From Phycisphaeraceae bacterium (lineage in GTDB: Bacteria > Planctomycetota > Phycisphaerae > Phycisphaerales > Phycisphaeraceae), in NCBI GenBank assembly GCA_002686995.1, contig NYZC01000229.1:1-32977 (forward strand): 32,977 nucleotides of DNA, read 5' to 3'. Both the position numbers and the translations under genes were made by a program. Positions 2,833-9,175 of this stretch are shown in pieces. The number at the start of each line of letters is the position of its first letter. The first letter of the stretch is position 1. The notes under the pieces were generated by a model that made no database searches, was not told where the DNA came from, and saw only the letters and a list, made by a program, of their open reading frames with translations.

Positions 2833-3666
2833 ATGAAGCTGAAGCGCAAAAGGTGGATCGCCCTTCTCATCGTGCTCGCACTGATGCTGCTGTCGTTCAC
2901 GTGGATGCGGTGGCGACCCGCGCAGCGGTTCGAGTCGTCGCTGCCGCGCCACCAGGAGTTCCGCGTGGCGACGTGGAACGTCGGGTACTTCTCGATGACG
3001 CGGGACAAGAATGTCCGGAAAACCGACCTGAAACCCATCGTCGAGACGATCCGGGCGCTTCACGCCGACGTGGTCATCCTGCAGGAGCTGGGGTCGCTCG
3101 ACCATCCCGAGACGATCGCCGGCGAGCTCGGCGAGGACTGGAATGCGTACGCGGTCGAGACCGGCCACGGCAGGCAGGTCCTCGCGATCCTCAGCCGTTC
3201 GGAGAGCCGGGAGACCGGGGACTGCGAGTGCGGCGGCAGGAAAGTCAAGACCGTGTCACTCAAGAGCCGTACCGGCCGAAGCGTGTTCGTGGCGGGCGTG
3301 CACTCACCGCACCCCGCGCGCGGGCCGAGCGACACGGTCGACAACATCCGCTGCGTCATCTCACGCGCGCGGGACCGGACCGAGGAGATCCGAATCATCG
3401 CCGGAGACATGAACTACAACTTCGACCCCGATCGCGAAGAAGACGAGTTGTACCGGGAGATCCGTTCGGACTTCGGCGACGGCACGAGCAGCCTGGGCGA
3501 GACCTATTACGCGCACACGCGCATCGACCACGTCTTTCACTACCCCGAATCGCTCGAGGTCGTGGAGGAAGGCTCCGGCCTGCTCGATCTCTCCTGGCGC
3601 TTCGCGAACGTGCCGGGCTTCCGCGATCACCGGCCGATCGTCGTGACGTACGATCTTGGGCAATGA
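2833..3666 (+). CDS. Membrane-anchored endonuclease/exonuclease/phosphatase family protein
   Basis: A 277-residue protein with a basic N-terminus and one hydrophobic helix (about 7-24), so the catalytic domain is probably outside the cytoplasmic membrane. EEP-superfamily motifs occur in order: ATWNV (Asn 49), ILQE (Glu 85), VHSPH (His 157), GDMN (Asp 192, Asn 194), IDHVF (Asp 232) and DHRP (Asp 265, His 266). This is a complete metal-dependent phosphodiesterase active site. Family members act on DNA, phosphoinositides, sphingomyelin or other phosphoesters, and the substrate is not evident here. A CECGG cysteine pair (131, 133) may form a disulfide. A tacaat hexamer lies at 2814-2819 but no matching -35 was found. 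The gene stands alone, downstream of the kelch remnant on the opposite strand. Confidence 0.88.
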   Translation: MKLKRKRWIALLIVLALMLLSFTWMRWRPAQRFESSLPRHQEFRVATWNVGYFSMTRDKNVRKTDLKPIVETIRALHADVVILQELGSLDHPETIAGELGEDWNAYAVETGHGRQVLAILSRSESRETGDCECGGRKVKTVSLKSRTGRSVFVAGVHSPHPARGPSDTVDNIRCVISRARDRTEEIRIIAGDMNYNFDPDREEDELYREIRSDFGDGTSSLGETYYAHTRIDHVFHYPESLEVVEEGSGLLDLSWRFANVPGFRDHRPIVVTYDLGQ

Positions 3667-3881: not shown

Positions 3882-4259
3882 TCACACCCCGTCCTCTCCC
3901 CCGCGCATCCGCAGGTAAAAGTCAAGCGCCGTGCACACGCCCTGACGCTGCGGCATGGTGAGCACGATCGCCGTGATGGTCAGGGCCAGGAACACGCCGC
4001 GTCCCATCCAGCTTTCCGGCTGGACGCCGAAGTAGAGCAGCGCGATCGCCACGGCAATGAAGATTCGGTCGCCGACGATCCAGAAGGCCCAGGTGTCGCC
4101 GGGCTTCGGCTCGAACTCGAGACGGCAATGAGGACACCGGTCGTGCAGCACGAACCAGCGCCGGAACTGGTTACCGACCCCGCAGCGCGGGCAACGTCGG
4201 CGCAGTCCGCGCCAGAGCACTCGGTGCAACGATGCCGTGCGATGCGCCGACGGGCTCAC
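3882..4259 (-). CDS. DUF983 family small membrane protein
   Basis: A 125-residue protein with two CxxC pairs (CPRC about 23-26, CPHC about 42-45) that look like a zinc ribbon. Two hydrophobic helices follow (about 57-78 and 88-102), and the C-terminus is MPQRQGVCTALDFYLRMRG. This layout of CPRC, CPHC, a PGDxWAFW-like segment and two TM helices matches DUF983, whose biochemical role is not known. The GTG start at 4259 overlaps the stop of the upstream methyltransferase by four bases (GTGA), indicating translational coupling. A longer open frame continues upstream but runs antisense inside the methyltransferase and is not credible. Confidence 0.85.
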   Translation of the reverse strand: MSPSAHRTASLHRVLWRGLRRRCPRCGVGNQFRRWFVLHDRCPHCRLEFEPKPGDTWAFWIVGDRIFIAVAIALLYFGVQPESWMGRGVFLALTITAIVLTMPQRQGVCTALDFYLRMRGGEDGV

Positions 4260-5074
4260 GCGGCGCTCGCCACGGCATCCTCCCGACGTTGACCGCCGCG
4301 CAGCGCCGCTTGCCACTTCTCGTCGAAAGGCACCGCCGCGTCGGACGCCCAGAAGTAGAGATTGTGCCGGTGCTCGTAGATCGTCTCGAACACGGTCACG
4401 TGGGCGAAGTGCGGCTCGAGGAACCGCATGAGGTCCTGCTTGCTCTTGAACTCGTACTCGTGGTGCGAGAGCGATTTCTCCCCGTCGCCGCGCTCCACGA
4501 TCGTGTAGCCGCTCAGGATGCCGCCGGGCGCCAGCCGGCTGCGGATCCCGGCGAGGATCGTATCGATCTCCTCCGGCGTGAAGTGCTCGATCGCCCCGTC
4601 CCACACGATGTTCTCGAAGCGGCCCTCGGGCAGATCGGTCCGGATGTCGGCCAGAACGTACGAGATGTTGTCCGCTCGATTGCGGCGTCGCGCGATGCGA
4701 ATCGCTTCGGCGTCGAAGTCACACGCGACGACCTCGCGGGAACGGCAACCGTAGAAGTTGAGCGCGTTGAATCCGTCCCCACAGGCCAGCTCGAGCACCC
4801 GGCCGCCCTTGAGGGCGAGGGCGCCGAAGACGCCGCGCTCGAGCCAGACCGGCGCCCTGGAGTGCCGCCACTGGTAGTAGAGATCGATGTGATGATCGAA
4901 GAACTCGGGCTGCGGATCGAGCCCCCACTGCACGAGCATCTGCCGACGATGAGCGGATGCGACCCAGCGTGCCGCGATCCGCGCCTCGAGCCGGAACAGC
5001 GGCTCGAGCAGCCGCTTGGGCGCCAGGCGCTTCACGAATGCGGGCACGCGTCCGACCTGTCGTTCCGCCGACAT
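4256..5074 (-). CDS. Class I SAM-dependent methyltransferase
   Basis: A 272-residue cytoplasmic protein with a Rossmann-fold methyltransferase core. Motif I is VLELACGDGF (about 93-102), the ribose-binding acidic residue lies in ACDFD (about 119), and ADIRTDLP (about 142-149) with WDGAIEHF (about 158-165) form motifs II and III. The first ~80 residues are basic and helical. The start is supported by a good GGAGG site just upstream of the ATG at 5074. It lies downstream of two glycosyltransferase genes on the same strand and overlaps the next gene by four bases. It may methylate a sugar, lipid or glycan end produced by the neighbours, which is inference from context. The 80-bp gap upstream holds a cacggatg repeat. 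Confidence 0.88.
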   Translation of the reverse strand: MSAERQVGRVPAFVKRLAPKRLLEPLFRLEARIAARWVASAHRRQMLVQWGLDPQPEFFDHHIDLYYQWRHSRAPVWLERGVFGALALKGGRVLELACGDGFNALNFYGCRSREVVACDFDAEAIRIARRRNRADNISYVLADIRTDLPEGRFENIVWDGAIEHFTPEEIDTILAGIRSRLAPGGILSGYTIVERGDGEKSLSHHEYEFKSKQDLMRFLEPHFAHVTVFETIYEHRHNLYFWASDAAVPFDEKWQAALRGGQRREDAVASAA

Positions 5075-5098
5075 GCTTCAACCTCCGTCCGGGTGGAA

Positions 5099-5131
5099 GA
5101 ACCACGGATGGACACGGATGGACACGGATGA
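5099..5131. repeat. cacggatg decamer repeat, single arm
   Basis: Three decamer units of cacggatgga type lie between a glycosyltransferase stop and a methyltransferase start. They are near-identical to one arm of the inverted pair at 136-211. Their place inside an apparent operon argues against a strong terminator role on their own. Confidence 0.75.
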
Positions 5132-5154
5132 AGGACGGGCAAGGGAAGTCAGCC

Positions 5155-6384
5155 CTAGAACTCCATATCCAGCTCCGCCGCCTTGCCGGTCTGGTTCGCC
5201 TCGAACGCGTAGTCGTACGCCTGCTCGTACTGGCGGGCCACCACCTCCCACGAGACGACCTCGTCTAGGTACACCTCGAGTCGATGCCCGAGCTCGAGCC
5301 GCAGCTGCTCGTCGCACGCAAGCTGAATCACCGCGTCGCGAAGGTTGTTCCTGTTGGTAAAGAGCAGGCCGCCGCCGCTCTCGATGGTCTGCGCCGTCAG
5401 GCCTTCCATCGGGGCGGTCGTCACGTACGGCTTGTTGAGGGCGATGATGCGCGCCAGCGTGCCGGACTGGGTTTCGTCGGTCGACGGGAGCACGATGAAG
5501 TCGCAGACCGCCATCATCTTGTAATATTCTTCGCCGCGCGGCACGAACTCGTAGTAGTGCGCGAGCCCCTTCTGCTCGAGCAGCTCGACCTGCCCCTTGT
5601 AGCGCTCGTAGTCCGACTGGTGGTTGGGGTCGCGCATCGCGCCGGCCGCGAGCAGGTCCCACTCGACGCCCGTGCGCTCGCGCACCGTCGCTTCGATCTC
5701 CTCCCACATGGAGGTCAGGATGTCCCAGCGCTTGTTCGACTGGATCCACCCGATCAGCCCCACAAGGTGCCGCCCCAGGTCCGGGTTGCGATTGAGGCCC
5801 AGCTCTTCCCTGAGCCGGGGCACCTCCTTGATGCTCCAGCGGTGATCAGGGCGGGCGCCGTGCGGCACCACCATCACGTTGCGCGGCGTCGTCCAGCCGC
5901 GCGCCGTGAAGTTCCAGTCGAGGCGCCACTTCTGGTAGTGGCACTTGAGCAGGAAGATGTCGCAGCGCTTGCAGCAGCGGTAGACGAAGTTCGCCTCGCG
6001 CTCCGTCAGCCGCCCGTGCACGGTGTGCGGCTCGATGACCAGCGGCCACCGCGACAGCGCGTTGAGCATCTCGAGGAAGCCCGCGTTCTCGTCGCCGTGT
6101 CCGCGTTCGTCCACGTACTCGTAGAGCCCGTACTCGTGCTCGATGTGCACGGCGCACGGCTGCAGCTTCTCGATCTGCTCTGCGACCGGCACCCACCAGT
6201 CGCGCCGGGACATGTCGATCAGGGGAAAGACGCCTTCGCCCTCGCCGTCGAGGTGGCTGATCACGAAGACGTCCCGCTCCGGCCGGCCCGCGGCGATGAA
6301 CTCGCGGGCCTCCTCGCAGAACGTCGCAATCCCGCAGAGGCGCGGGGGATACGAGCTGATCATCACGACGGGAGGCACCGGCAT
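5155..6384 (-). CDS. GT4-like glycosyltransferase
   Basis: A 409-residue protein that begins with SSYPPRLCGIATF, the N-terminal Rossmann signature of a mannosyltransferase-like GT4 subgroup. A HIEHEYGLYE segment (about 80-88) aligns with LQHEFGIFGG of the upstream gene product. The C-terminal donor half contains LIGWIQSNKRWD, DFIVLPSTDETQSGTLAR and a conserved-looking YVTTAPMEGL. The usual E-x7-E donor motif is modified: the first Glu is present and the second position is Arg. This gene and the upstream one appear to be paralogues. The enzyme is probably cytoplasmic and would transfer an unknown nucleotide-sugar residue during glycan assembly. The gene follows the upstream glycosyltransferase by 23 bp, so the two are likely co-transcribed. 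Confidence 0.87.
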   Translation of the reverse strand: MPVPPVVMISSYPPRLCGIATFCEEAREFIAAGRPERDVFVISHLDGEGEGVFPLIDMSRRDWWVPVAEQIEKLQPCAVHIEHEYGLYEYVDERGHGDENAGFLEMLNALSRWPLVIEPHTVHGRLTEREANFVYRCCKRCDIFLLKCHYQKWRLDWNFTARGWTTPRNVMVVPHGARPDHRWSIKEVPRLREELGLNRNPDLGRHLVGLIGWIQSNKRWDILTSMWEEIEATVRERTGVEWDLLAAGAMRDPNHQSDYERYKGQVELLEQKGLAHYYEFVPRGEEYYKMMAVCDFIVLPSTDETQSGTLARIIALNKPYVTTAPMEGLTAQTIESGGGLLFTNRNNLRDAVIQLACDEQLRLELGHRLEVYLDEVVSWEVVARQYEQAYDYAFEANQTGKAAELDMEF

Positions 6385-6407
6385 CGATCAATCGTCCACA
6401 CGAGGGC

Positions 6408-8768
6408 TCATCCCTCGGAGGATTCCAGGGACGGCACAACCGATTGATCGGCTCCGGACTGCGATGGGGTTGACGTTTTTGGCTCGGACTGCTCCCCTGC
6501 CGGCGCGGCGAGGCGCATCTCGTGCATCGACAGCGACGAGAGCAGCCAGGCGAGCGTCGATTCCGCACCCTGGTTCTCGCTCGTGCCCTCGGGATGCAGC
6601 CCGTCGCAGCAACCGCCGGTTATCGGATCATAGACCGGCACGTTGACGTCGTTGTCGCCGAGGAACCAGTTCAGGCACCAGTCGGCGCGCTCGTTCCACT
6701 TCGGGTCACCGGTCGCGCCCCCCGCCTCGTGAAACGCGTCGATCATCGCCGCGGCCTCGAGCGGCTGCTGCGCGAACCGCGCCAGCTCGCCGCCGCGCGG
6801 ATACCAGCCCTGGTTGCCGATCGGCGCGAAATGGCCCTGCGGCGCGCGCTGGATCATGTAGAGCCACTCGAGGGCGCGCAGCCCCATGTCGATCATCTCG
6901 TGGTCGAACATCCACTGACCGGCGAGCAGCAGCGCCTGCGGCAGGCGCGCGTTGTCGTAGGTGACGATGTCCTCGAGCCACGGCCAGTCGTCCGCGACCC
7001 GCTCGCGGAACTGGGCCATCAGGCGGTGGCTGAGCTGCTCGCGCACCCGGCGCACGGCCGTGTCGCCCCCGAAACGGCGCAGGTAGGCATGGATGCCGAT
7101 GAGCCCGTAAGCCCAGGCCCGCGGCGAAGTGAAATCGCCCAGCGCGGGCAGGGAGCGGTGCAGCAGGTCGCTGGCCACGCTCAGATGGCCGCGCAATTCG
7201 CTTCGGGCGACGGTCTCGCCCACCGCCCACACCGCCCGACCGTGGCTGTCCTCGGAGCCGATCTGCTCCAGCCAGCGACGGTCGTACCCCATGAAATTGC
7301 GGAAGCGCCCCGACTCCGCGACGAACGCGTAGTCGAGAAAGCTCAGGTAACGGCTGGCCAGTGCGGCGCAGCCCGTGCCGCTCGGCAGGTGATCCTGCGC
7401 CATGAGCACCGCGATCAGTGCCCGCGCGTTGTCGTCGGTGCAGTACCCGTGATCGCGATTCGGGATGATGCCGCGCGCGTGCTGGAGGATGCCGGTGTCG
7501 TCGGTCAGCCCGTGCAGATGGTCGAGCTTGACCTCGGTCAGCTCCCCTTCCTGCTCGTCGAGGCGCTTGCCGACGCCCATCGGACGCGGCGAATGGCGCC
7601 TGGCCTCGTCGACGTCGAGAAACACGTCGAGGTACTGGCGGCCGACCTGCGGCCAGACCATGTCGCGCGTGAAGTTGTAGGCGCGCTTGCGCATGGCGTG
7701 CCGCTCGACGTCGTGGTCGAACAGGTCGATGATCGCCTGCGCCAGCGCCGTCCCGTCCTTGAACGGCACGATACGTCCGCGTCCGTCGGCCAGCATCTCC
7801 TGCGCGTACCAGTAGGGCGTCGACACCACGGCGTTGCCGGTCCCCAGCGCGTACGCAAGCGTGCCTGAAACGATCTGCGCCTCGCTGAGGTACGGCGTGA
7901 CGTAGAGGTCCGCGGCGCCGAGAAACTGGCACAGCTCCGGCAGCTCGACGAATCGGTTGTGGAAGATGACGTGGTCGCCGACCTCGTTCAGATGCGCCTG
8001 CCGCTGCAGCCGCGCCCGGTAGTCCTCGCCGAACTCCGCCTGGACGTTGGGATGCGTCGCGCCGAGCACGATGTAGACGACGTCCTCGTGCGCCTCGACG
8101 ATGCGCGGCAGGGCATCGATCATCGTCTCGATGCCCTTGCCGGGGCTGAGCAGGCCGAAAGTGAGGATCACCTTCTTGCCCTCGACTCCGTACTGGTCCT
8201 TGTAGTAGTTGGGGTCGACGAACGGCACGTCGGGAATGCCGTGCGGCACGTGCACGATCTTGTCGGTCGGCACGTCGTAGATGCGATCGAGGAACTCGAC
8301 GGCACGGTCGGCCATCACGATGAGACGGTCGGAAAGCTCGGCGACGCGCCGCAGCGTCTTGCGCTGGCCTGGCGTGGGATCCTTCAGCACCGTGTGCAGG
8401 GTCGTGACGACCGGCGTCCGGAGTCGGCGCAGCAGTTCGGTCACGTGATGGCCGTCGGCGCCCCCGAAGATCCCGAACTCGTGCTGGAGGCTGACGACGT
8501 CGACCCGGCTCATGTTCAGGAAGTCGGCGGCGAGCCGGTAATCGGTCAGCCGGCGCTCGTTGATCTCGAACTTCACCCGGTGCGGATAGCGATGTCCCGC
8601 CGGCTGGTCGTTGAGCGCGAGCGCCCAGCACTCGGTCTCCGGGGCGACGGCCGTGATGGCGTCGGACAGGTCGGCACTGAACGTGGCGATCCCGCACCTG
8701 CGAGGCAGGTAGGTCCCGATCAGGGCGACCGTTTTCAGTGAGTCCCGGTTGCGTGGTCGACTGGGCAT
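6408..8768 (-). CDS. Glycosyltransferase (GT4) fused to a C-terminal (alpha/alpha)-barrel glycosidase-like domain
   Basis: A 786-residue two-domain protein. The N-terminal half (about 1-390) is a GT4 enzyme: IGTYLPRRCGIATF, LQHEFGIFGG, HGIPDVPF, LTFGLLSPGKGIETMIDALP and SEAQIVSGTLAYALGTGNAVVSTPYW. The C-terminal half (about 425-760) is rich in amphipathic helices and aromatic/acidic motifs: HGYCTDDNARALI, SHGRAVWAVGE, WPWLEDIVTYDNARLPQA and NQGAESTLAWLL. These fit a six-hairpin glycoside-processing fold, although I cannot name a GH family. Such fusions occur in mannosyltransferase-like GT4 proteins, so a mannoside product is possible but unproven. I use the ATG at 8768; the frame stays open to 8915. 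It is the first gene of the four-gene minus-strand cluster. Confidence 0.87.
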   Translation of the reverse strand: MPSRPRNRDSLKTVALIGTYLPRRCGIATFSADLSDAITAVAPETECWALALNDQPAGHRYPHRVKFEINERRLTDYRLAADFLNMSRVDVVSLQHEFGIFGGADGHHVTELLRRLRTPVVTTLHTVLKDPTPGQRKTLRRVAELSDRLIVMADRAVEFLDRIYDVPTDKIVHVPHGIPDVPFVDPNYYKDQYGVEGKKVILTFGLLSPGKGIETMIDALPRIVEAHEDVVYIVLGATHPNVQAEFGEDYRARLQRQAHLNEVGDHVIFHNRFVELPELCQFLGAADLYVTPYLSEAQIVSGTLAYALGTGNAVVSTPYWYAQEMLADGRGRIVPFKDGTALAQAIIDLFDHDVERHAMRKRAYNFTRDMVWPQVGRQYLDVFLDVDEARRHSPRPMGVGKRLDEQEGELTEVKLDHLHGLTDDTGILQHARGIIPNRDHGYCTDDNARALIAVLMAQDHLPSGTGCAALASRYLSFLDYAFVAESGRFRNFMGYDRRWLEQIGSEDSHGRAVWAVGETVARSELRGHLSVASDLLHRSLPALGDFTSPRAWAYGLIGIHAYLRRFGGDTAVRRVREQLSHRLMAQFRERVADDWPWLEDIVTYDNARLPQALLLAGQWMFDHEMIDMGLRALEWLYMIQRAPQGHFAPIGNQGWYPRGGELARFAQQPLEAAAMIDAFHEAGGATGDPKWNERADWCLNWFLGDNDVNVPVYDPITGGCCDGLHPEGTSENQGAESTLAWLLSSLSMHEMRLAAPAGEQSEPKTSTPSQSGADQSVVPSLESSEG

Positions 8769-9175
8769 TCGTCCGGCGTCCGATGATCGTGACCCGCACG
8801 CGGTCGATCGACCGCAACCCGAAAAGCGCGAATTGGAACCGCCACCGGTTGCGACGTTTGAGGCCAACGACAGTCTAGCCGATGCGGGCCTGATTAGAAA
8901 ATCGACGTAAATCACTGAAAAAGTTGAATTTACGATTTCAATTCATCCGCCCTCCCGGCATCCTGAGTCGCGTCATTACCGGAATCGGGGACAACTGAGG
9001 AATTTGCCCCAATCCGACGGTCCGGGATTGGGCATTGCCCGCACCTCGCCCGCGCCTTGTTTACGGCACACACCGGTCGTACGGCCTGTGAGGTCATCCG
9101 TGTTCCTGGCACGTGGTTTGCGTCCCTGAACGGCGGAAGTTCGGAAACCCAATGCCAGGATGCCCCACACCACCC
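8769..9175. other. Divergent intergenic region with AT-rich patch
   Basis: About 400 bp separate the minus-strand glycosyltransferase start and the plus-strand GAF protein start. The only compositional landmark is an AT-rich island at about 8893-8945. It contains ttgaa and ttcaa as inverted half-sites with 8 nt between them, which could be an operator or promoter region. No complete -35/-10 pair was convincing. Some of the region may be coding if upstream starts are used (8915 for the glycosyltransferase, GTG 9113 for the GAF protein). No RNA gene was recognised. Confidence 0.4.

Follow-up and report, generated by a model that had tools for sequence, protein, structure and literature searches.

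A GT4 glycosyltransferase fused to an (alpha/alpha)6 toroid domain and its association with GH130 phosphorylase genes across bacterial phyla

Introduction

Four tandem genes in a planctomycete genome raise the question of whether they act on one glycan and, if not, which of them belong together and in what pathway. They occupy positions 3882-8768 of the stretch of DNA analyzed here (the window; 32,977 nucleotides (nt), contig NYZC01000229.1 of the Phycisphaeraceae bacterium assembly GCA_002686995.1). The leading gene codes for a fusion of an N-terminal GT4 glycosyltransferase and a C-terminal (alpha/alpha)6 toroid (the C-domain); it is followed by genes for a second GT4 glycosyltransferase (GT4b), an S-adenosylmethionine (SAM)-dependent methyltransferase and a small DUF983 protein. 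A first-pass annotation had read all four as one glycan cluster that might produce a methylated, mannose-type glycan. The genes are as it described them, all on the minus strand. However, the conserved unit looks like the fusion plus GT4b, with the other two genes looking like local additions, because the pair is kept in relatives and the methyltransferase and DUF983 are not. Further, the commonest neighbor of the fusion across phyla is a GH130 gene, not export or polymerase genes. On balance, we lean towards viewing the fusion and, where present, GT4b as cytosolic enzymes of a pathway for the synthesis and turnover of mannoside oligosaccharides. The features concerned, with lengths in amino acids (aa), are:

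8768-6408, minus strand: fusion gene, N-terminal GT4 plus C-terminal (alpha/alpha)6 toroid, ATG start, 786 aa
7593..8735, minus strand: GT4 domain of the fusion, residues ~12-392, PimA-like GT-B fold
6525..7535, minus strand: C-domain of the fusion, (alpha/alpha)6, residues ~412-748
6384-5155, minus strand: GT4b, partner GT4 glycosyltransferase with its own orthologue family, 409 aa
5074-4256, minus strand: SAM-dependent methyltransferase, local neighbor, 272 aa
4259-3882, minus strand: DUF983 small protein, local neighbor, GTG start, 125 aa

Results

The two halves of the fusion

In the structural model of the full fusion, the N-terminal half is a GT-B domain of the GT4 type close to PimA with GDP-Man (2gej; Z 35.3 over 347 residues), and the mannosyltransferase of the methylmannose polysaccharide (MMP) pathway, 7qsg, matches it with Z 33.1. 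Profile searches likewise place PimA, a GDP-mannose-dependent enzyme, among its relatives, and the Pfam models PF00534 (60.3 bits; cut-off 26.4), PF13692 and PF13439 all score above their own cut-offs. The predicted template modeling score (pTM) of the whole-fusion model is 0.56, and hence the model does not settle how the two domains are arranged. GT4 is a retaining family with the EX7E motif as its hallmark; the canonical motif is absent from both GT4 domains of the locus. In the fusion, its second Glu corresponds to Y306 by PimA profile alignment, with Tyr in 56 of the 59 aligned sequences (alignment A3: 58 of 71 loci plus the window), and Q298, S301 and G302 are invariant (59/59). In GT4b, the equivalent column, matched by hand, holds R312 in 20/20 sequences.

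The C-domain, modeled over 354 residues (pTM 0.92; predicted local distance difference test (pLDDT) score 93.8), forms an (alpha/alpha)6 toroid. Its best fold match is 7tem (Z 38.2), ahead of the exo-glucosaminidase 6gdt (Z 30.2), cellobiose 2-epimerases (Z 29-30) and GH76 enzymes (Z ~27), with the MMP hydrolase MmpH (7qsj; Z 25.5, 9% identity) far below the best match. Seven residues, namely D423, H430, D445, D446, D507, D722 and E736, are invariant in 74/74 sequences (alignment A2: the window and 73 of the 79 named loci that were usable), which makes the domain look catalytic, with its activity being predicted from this conservation. The first-pass annotation had proposed a glycosidase-like helical domain, and the model bears it out as to fold, which is common to many glycosidases; its identity as a glycosidase is tentative, because this fold is found in hydrolases and sugar epimerases alike and does not separate the two. 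Neither Pfam nor NCBIfam has a model covering the C-terminal half of the fusion, or the stand-alone copies in loci L098 and L104.

The C-domain family also occurs in other architectures. In L094 (7029-9269, minus strand), Pfam detects a GFO/IDH/MocA oxidoreductase domain C-terminal to it within the same protein, and a second GFO/IDH/MocA gene directly adjoins; L095, L096, L097 and L101 have the same arrangement as judged by BLAST cluster or length only. Stand-alone copies (~400 aa) are seen in L098, L099, L100, L103, L104 and L107. Two long frames end in the C-domain: one in L077 (9238-12801, minus strand, 1187 aa) and one in L102 (8522-12619, minus strand, 1365 aa), the latter with no Pfam match along its whole length.

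Linkage to GH130 across phyla

The C-domain alignment, used as a query against GTDB species genomes, recovered at least 584 relatives, and we analyzed the loci of the best 80, a set that leans towards the window's protein as it is the best of at least 584. They span many phyla, including Thermodesulfobacteriota, Chloroflexota, Acidobacteriota, Verrucomicrobiota, Planctomycetota, Spirochaetota and Fibrobacterota. The GT4 part lies ahead of the C-domain in the same frame in 78/80 loci, some of which are truncated at a contig end. A GH130 gene is present in 69 of the 80, and in 51 it lies no more than 300 nt from the fusion. Where flanking sequence of at least 3 kb is available on each side (42 loci), 39 have one; in 10 loci the two genes overlap by exactly 4 nt. 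Of 12 control loci whose C-domain gene lacks a GT4 half, just one has GH130. These assignments used profiles (FUSN, CDOM, GH130, GH130b, GT4b, MT and DUF983) built in this analysis from our own sequence sets, and PF04041 was confirmed on representative GH130 genes. In the window's own family, GH130 adjoins the fusion in 5/20 loci. Another glycosyltransferase, a third GT4 with glucosylsucrose synthase as a relative (7fg9; E 6e-84), occurs in 27/80 loci, and also in L125, L131 and L132. Among the papers listed by our searches of open-access PMC, we recognized none, by title and abstract, that describes such a fusion together with GH130.

Two individual loci deserve mention. In L125 (1680-3239, minus strand), the third GT4 itself carries a C-terminal domain of the mannose-6-phosphate isomerase type, and it lies next to GH130 and to the pair of fusion and GT4b. 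L188 (2816-5113, plus strand) is from a Lokiarchaeota-labeled bin with both fusion and GH130, which could be a real transfer or a binning error.

The association is also seen at the level of whole genomes. Among 61 genomes (the window's genome and 60 relatives), 23 have the C-domain, and direct search found a long GH130 type (~500 aa) in 21/23 of these as against 1/38 of the negative genomes (Fisher p 4e-13, with shared ancestry ignored). The lone negative genome with the long type, G001, is 66% complete, and its genus-mate G033 has both; the positive genomes without it are the window's own and G012. G008 was scored as positive although its C-domain copy is stand-alone, and G028 has two copies each of the C-domain and the long-type GH130. 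A second, short GH130 type has as its relatives TM1225 and beta-1,4-mannooligosaccharide phosphorylase.

A clue to linkage specificity comes from the GH130 sequences. The part of an earlier study drawn on here (PMC4599007) ascribes beta-1,2 specificity to Lys199 of BT3780. In our alignments, one GH130 column holds K in beta-1,2 enzymes (9fj8, 7fip, 9erg, 5b0p) and R in beta-1,4 enzymes (1vkd, 5ayd, 4udg), and it probably corresponds to the Lys199 column. K occupies this column in 36/36 long-type and 48/73 short-type GH130s.

GT4b as an optional partner

The GT4 half of the fusion and GT4b share 23% identity over 398 columns (E 5e-14), as well as the CGIATF, HEYGLY/HEFGIFGG and SGTLA motifs from which they had been called tandem paralogues. 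Their homology thus holds, whereas a recent tandem duplication is ruled out by the low identity and the separate orthologue families; on these sequence grounds, they are old paralogues. GT4b scores above the Pfam cut-offs for PF13692 (36.9 bits; cut-off 27) and PF00534, its profile has no match in the PDB at 0.01, and its DETQSGTLAR block is identical in 20/20 sequences.

In 392 genomes of the phylum we found 14 other GT4b orthologues (58-72% identity), plus two distant matches (26-28%). The fusion directly adjoins GT4b in 13/14 of these loci, in either gene order, with 4-nt overlaps in L124, L127 and L129; the 13 include L108, whose contig has only the C-domain of the fusion, and the lone unpaired locus (L130) is a 5.2 kb contig. 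GT4b is present in 8/80 of the wider fusion loci and in none of the 20 fusion neighborhoods of relatives (L074-L093); outside the window, the 61 genomes hold only distant homologues of GT4b and of the methyltransferase. In a tree of the 103 fusion proteins with both halves long enough, the window's fusion groups with that of G031, within a clade of 14 members from its own family (99 by the Shimodaira-Hasegawa-like approximate likelihood ratio test, SH-aLRT), and the other 13 members have no GT4b beside the fusion. The GT4b tree places the window's protein, with modest support (82/91), alongside three others from its phylum (L124, L127 and L129). The pairing is clustered on the fusion tree, yet needs five changes, a pattern that fits repeated loss or transfer. 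Misbinning of the contig from another organism is not favored, because the fusion nests in the clade of its genome's own family.

The methyltransferase and DUF983 as local neighbors

The four genes are likely to form one transcription unit, such that the methyltransferase and DUF983 may be co-transcribed with the pair. The fusion and GT4b are separated by 23 nt, GT4b and the methyltransferase by 80 nt, and the last two genes share a 4-nt GTGA overlap; a divergent GAF-domain gene starts upstream at 9113 (344 nt away) and a convergent gene ends downstream at 3666 (215 nt away). Pfam identifies the third gene through Methyltransf_25 and other models above cut-off, and the fourth through DUF983 (PF06170; 32.8 bits against 22.6).

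Beyond the window, neither gene accompanies the pair: a methyltransferase or DUF983 gene is present beside GT4b in 0/14 phylum loci (including 7 contigs shorter than 8 kb), beside the fusion in 0/20 family loci, and in 0/80 of the wider fusion loci. On these grounds of conservation we reject the four-gene functional unit; a lack of both genes beside the glycosyltransferases of relatives is the outcome that the first-pass annotation had itself named as refuting its reading. The proposed methylated mannose glycan has no backing outside this one genome. Among the 392 phylum genomes, good orthologues of the methyltransferase number two (53-57%), both in other polysaccharide clusters: L173 lies near sugar-nucleotide and flippase-like genes, and L174 within an ABC-exporter polysaccharide cluster (gene names read from translations). 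Its nearest solved structures are mostly of unassigned function. DUF983 occurs in 3/61 of the window's genome and relatives, and in 57/392 phylum genomes, the window's own included. A profile scan of 32 short DUF983 loci, none longer than 3.3 kb, in which the DUF983 profile itself matched 31/32, found the fusion, GT4b, GH130 and this methyltransferase in none. The one DUF983 paper that we found is a COX operon study; in the part of it drawn on here, DUF983 is handled as a COX4-like protein (PMC4013037). A defense role was also discounted: PADLOC returned one match, of the methyltransferase to mad2 (60 bits), covering the generic methyltransferase domain only, and none for the other three genes.

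Discussion

Taken together, the domain content and predicted folds, the conserved pairing, and the linkage and genome-wide co-occurrence with GH130 lead us to propose the following mechanism, in which we infer the substrate, donor, product and direction of flow. The GT4 domains would build a small glycan, with GDP-mannose as the likeliest donor; the toroid might then work in cis on the same glycan, trimming or rearranging it via the conserved acids, and the GH130 phosphorylases would recover mannose 1-phosphate, with all these steps probably being cytosolic. Under this proposal, the fusion would be a self-trimming transferase and GT4b an optional partner, with the GH130 gene lying next to the fusion in most lineages and at a separate genomic site in most members of the window's family, and the methyltransferase and DUF983 would lie outside the conserved pathway. 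The mannose theme of the first-pass annotation thus finds backing in the GH130 neighbors of relatives. A bolder version, which we regard as speculative and rather improbable, is that many bacterial phyla possess an undescribed cytosolic beta-1,2-mannan-type reserve, primed or capped by the self-trimming fusion and GT4b, whose GT4 active sites are non-canonical, and mobilized by GH130, as a bacterial counterpart of Leishmania mannogen.

Several observations weigh against the mannoside pathway. The long-type GH130 was not found in the window's own draft genome (87.6% complete), which has only two other GH130 matches, on contigs C69 and C197, not adjacent to the fusion; within the family, GH130 is not adjacent to the fusion in 15/20 loci. 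The specificity signature is mixed, with R in 25/73 short-type GH130s. The relative of glucosylsucrose synthase, a UDP-glucose-dependent enzyme, in 27/80 loci would fit a glucose-containing product. Finally, the making of beta-mannosides is left unexplained because GT4 is a retaining family. As a separate observation, the GH130 gene on C69 (L263, 3885-5876, plus strand) belongs to a frame of 774 aa, or 663 aa when counted from the first start codon, and has a ~390-residue N-terminal extension without a Pfam match.

Other explanations were also considered. The C-domain could be a disaccharide 2-epimerase-like member of the AGE superfamily, whereby the fusion and GH130 would mirror the catabolic pair of mannobiose 2-epimerase and mannosylglucose phosphorylase; an AGE-fold epimerase with a GH130 enzyme is indeed a known mannan-breakdown pair, and cellobiose 2-epimerases score well against the domain. 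However, AGE epimerases rely on a pair of catalytic histidines located further along the domain, whereas only H430 is invariant here, with H417 in 69/74 sequences, both near the start of the domain as judged from the alignment. Moreover, fusion to a glycosyltransferase is ill-suited to a purely catabolic role, and we judge this explanation to be quite unlikely. Alternatively, the pair might be involved in making a surface polysaccharide for export (O-antigen or capsule), with the toroid gauging chain length. In keeping with this, some family loci have rmlA/rmlB-type nucleotidyltransferase and dehydratase genes near the fusion (clusters c4 and c1), and the stand-alone C-domains of L099 and L103 are close to ABC-2/Wzt-type export genes; yet GH130, rather than export or polymerase genes, is the main neighbor across phyla, and our Pfam scan recognized no export genes beside the window's cluster, making this a rather improbable option.

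The reading that retains all four genes is an MMP-like methylated-mannan pathway, in which the GT4s would elongate, the toroid cut and the methyltransferase cap. The gene types do match those of the MMP cluster (MeT1, MmpH, pMeT3 and ManT; PMC9883506, in the part drawn on here), both halves of the fusion match MMP enzymes in structure (7qsg and 7qsj), and the four genes are in tandem with the last two overlapping. Nevertheless, it is weakened by the failure of the methyltransferase to accompany the pair in any of the relatives examined, the standing of 7qsj far from the top fold match, and the mostly unassigned function of the nearest solved methyltransferases, such that we consider it very unlikely.

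The mannoside pathway that we favor would place a transferase/toroid protein, with a second domain that lacks a Pfam model, at a currently unassigned step in the cytosolic glycan metabolism of many phyla, tightly linked to mannoside phosphorylases. The GH130 association is suggestive of a reserve or recycling pathway based on mannose that has yet to be described. The analysis also sets right an appealing interpretation of the four genes, by which DUF983 and methylation would have been tied to that pathway.

Comparison with known systems

The closest solved relative of the C-domain, the uncharacterized YPO2471 (7tem; 327 residues aligned, 19% identity), differs in being a stand-alone "putative exported protein"; we found no open-access PMC paper on its function. 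The GT4 domain of the fusion shares with PimA and its family the GT-B fold and has characterized GDP-mannose relatives by profile and structure; the difference is that both the fusion and GT4b are without EX7E. On the phosphorylase side, the Leishmania mannogen enzymes (GT108) apply a GH130-type fold to a beta-1,2-mannan energy reserve; this system is eukaryotic and, in the part of the account drawn on here, without a GT4 fusion, and is an analogy only (PMC8950772). In the GDP-mannose salvage cluster of Thermoanaerobacter, the GH130 beta-1,2-mannoside phosphorylases Teth514_1788/1789 are likewise clustered with a GT4 mannosyltransferase, but the gene list in the part of that paper drawn on here has ABC uptake genes and no GT4-(alpha/alpha)6 fusion (PMC4264767). 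The mycobacterial MMP cluster, as described in the part of the report drawn on here, unites a mannosyltransferase, an (alpha/alpha)6 hydrolase and methyltransferases around a self-trimming glycan (PMC9883506). In contrast, in the system described here the GT4 and the (alpha/alpha)6 domain, itself a distant match to MmpH, are a single protein, and the conserved partner is GH130 rather than a methyltransferase.

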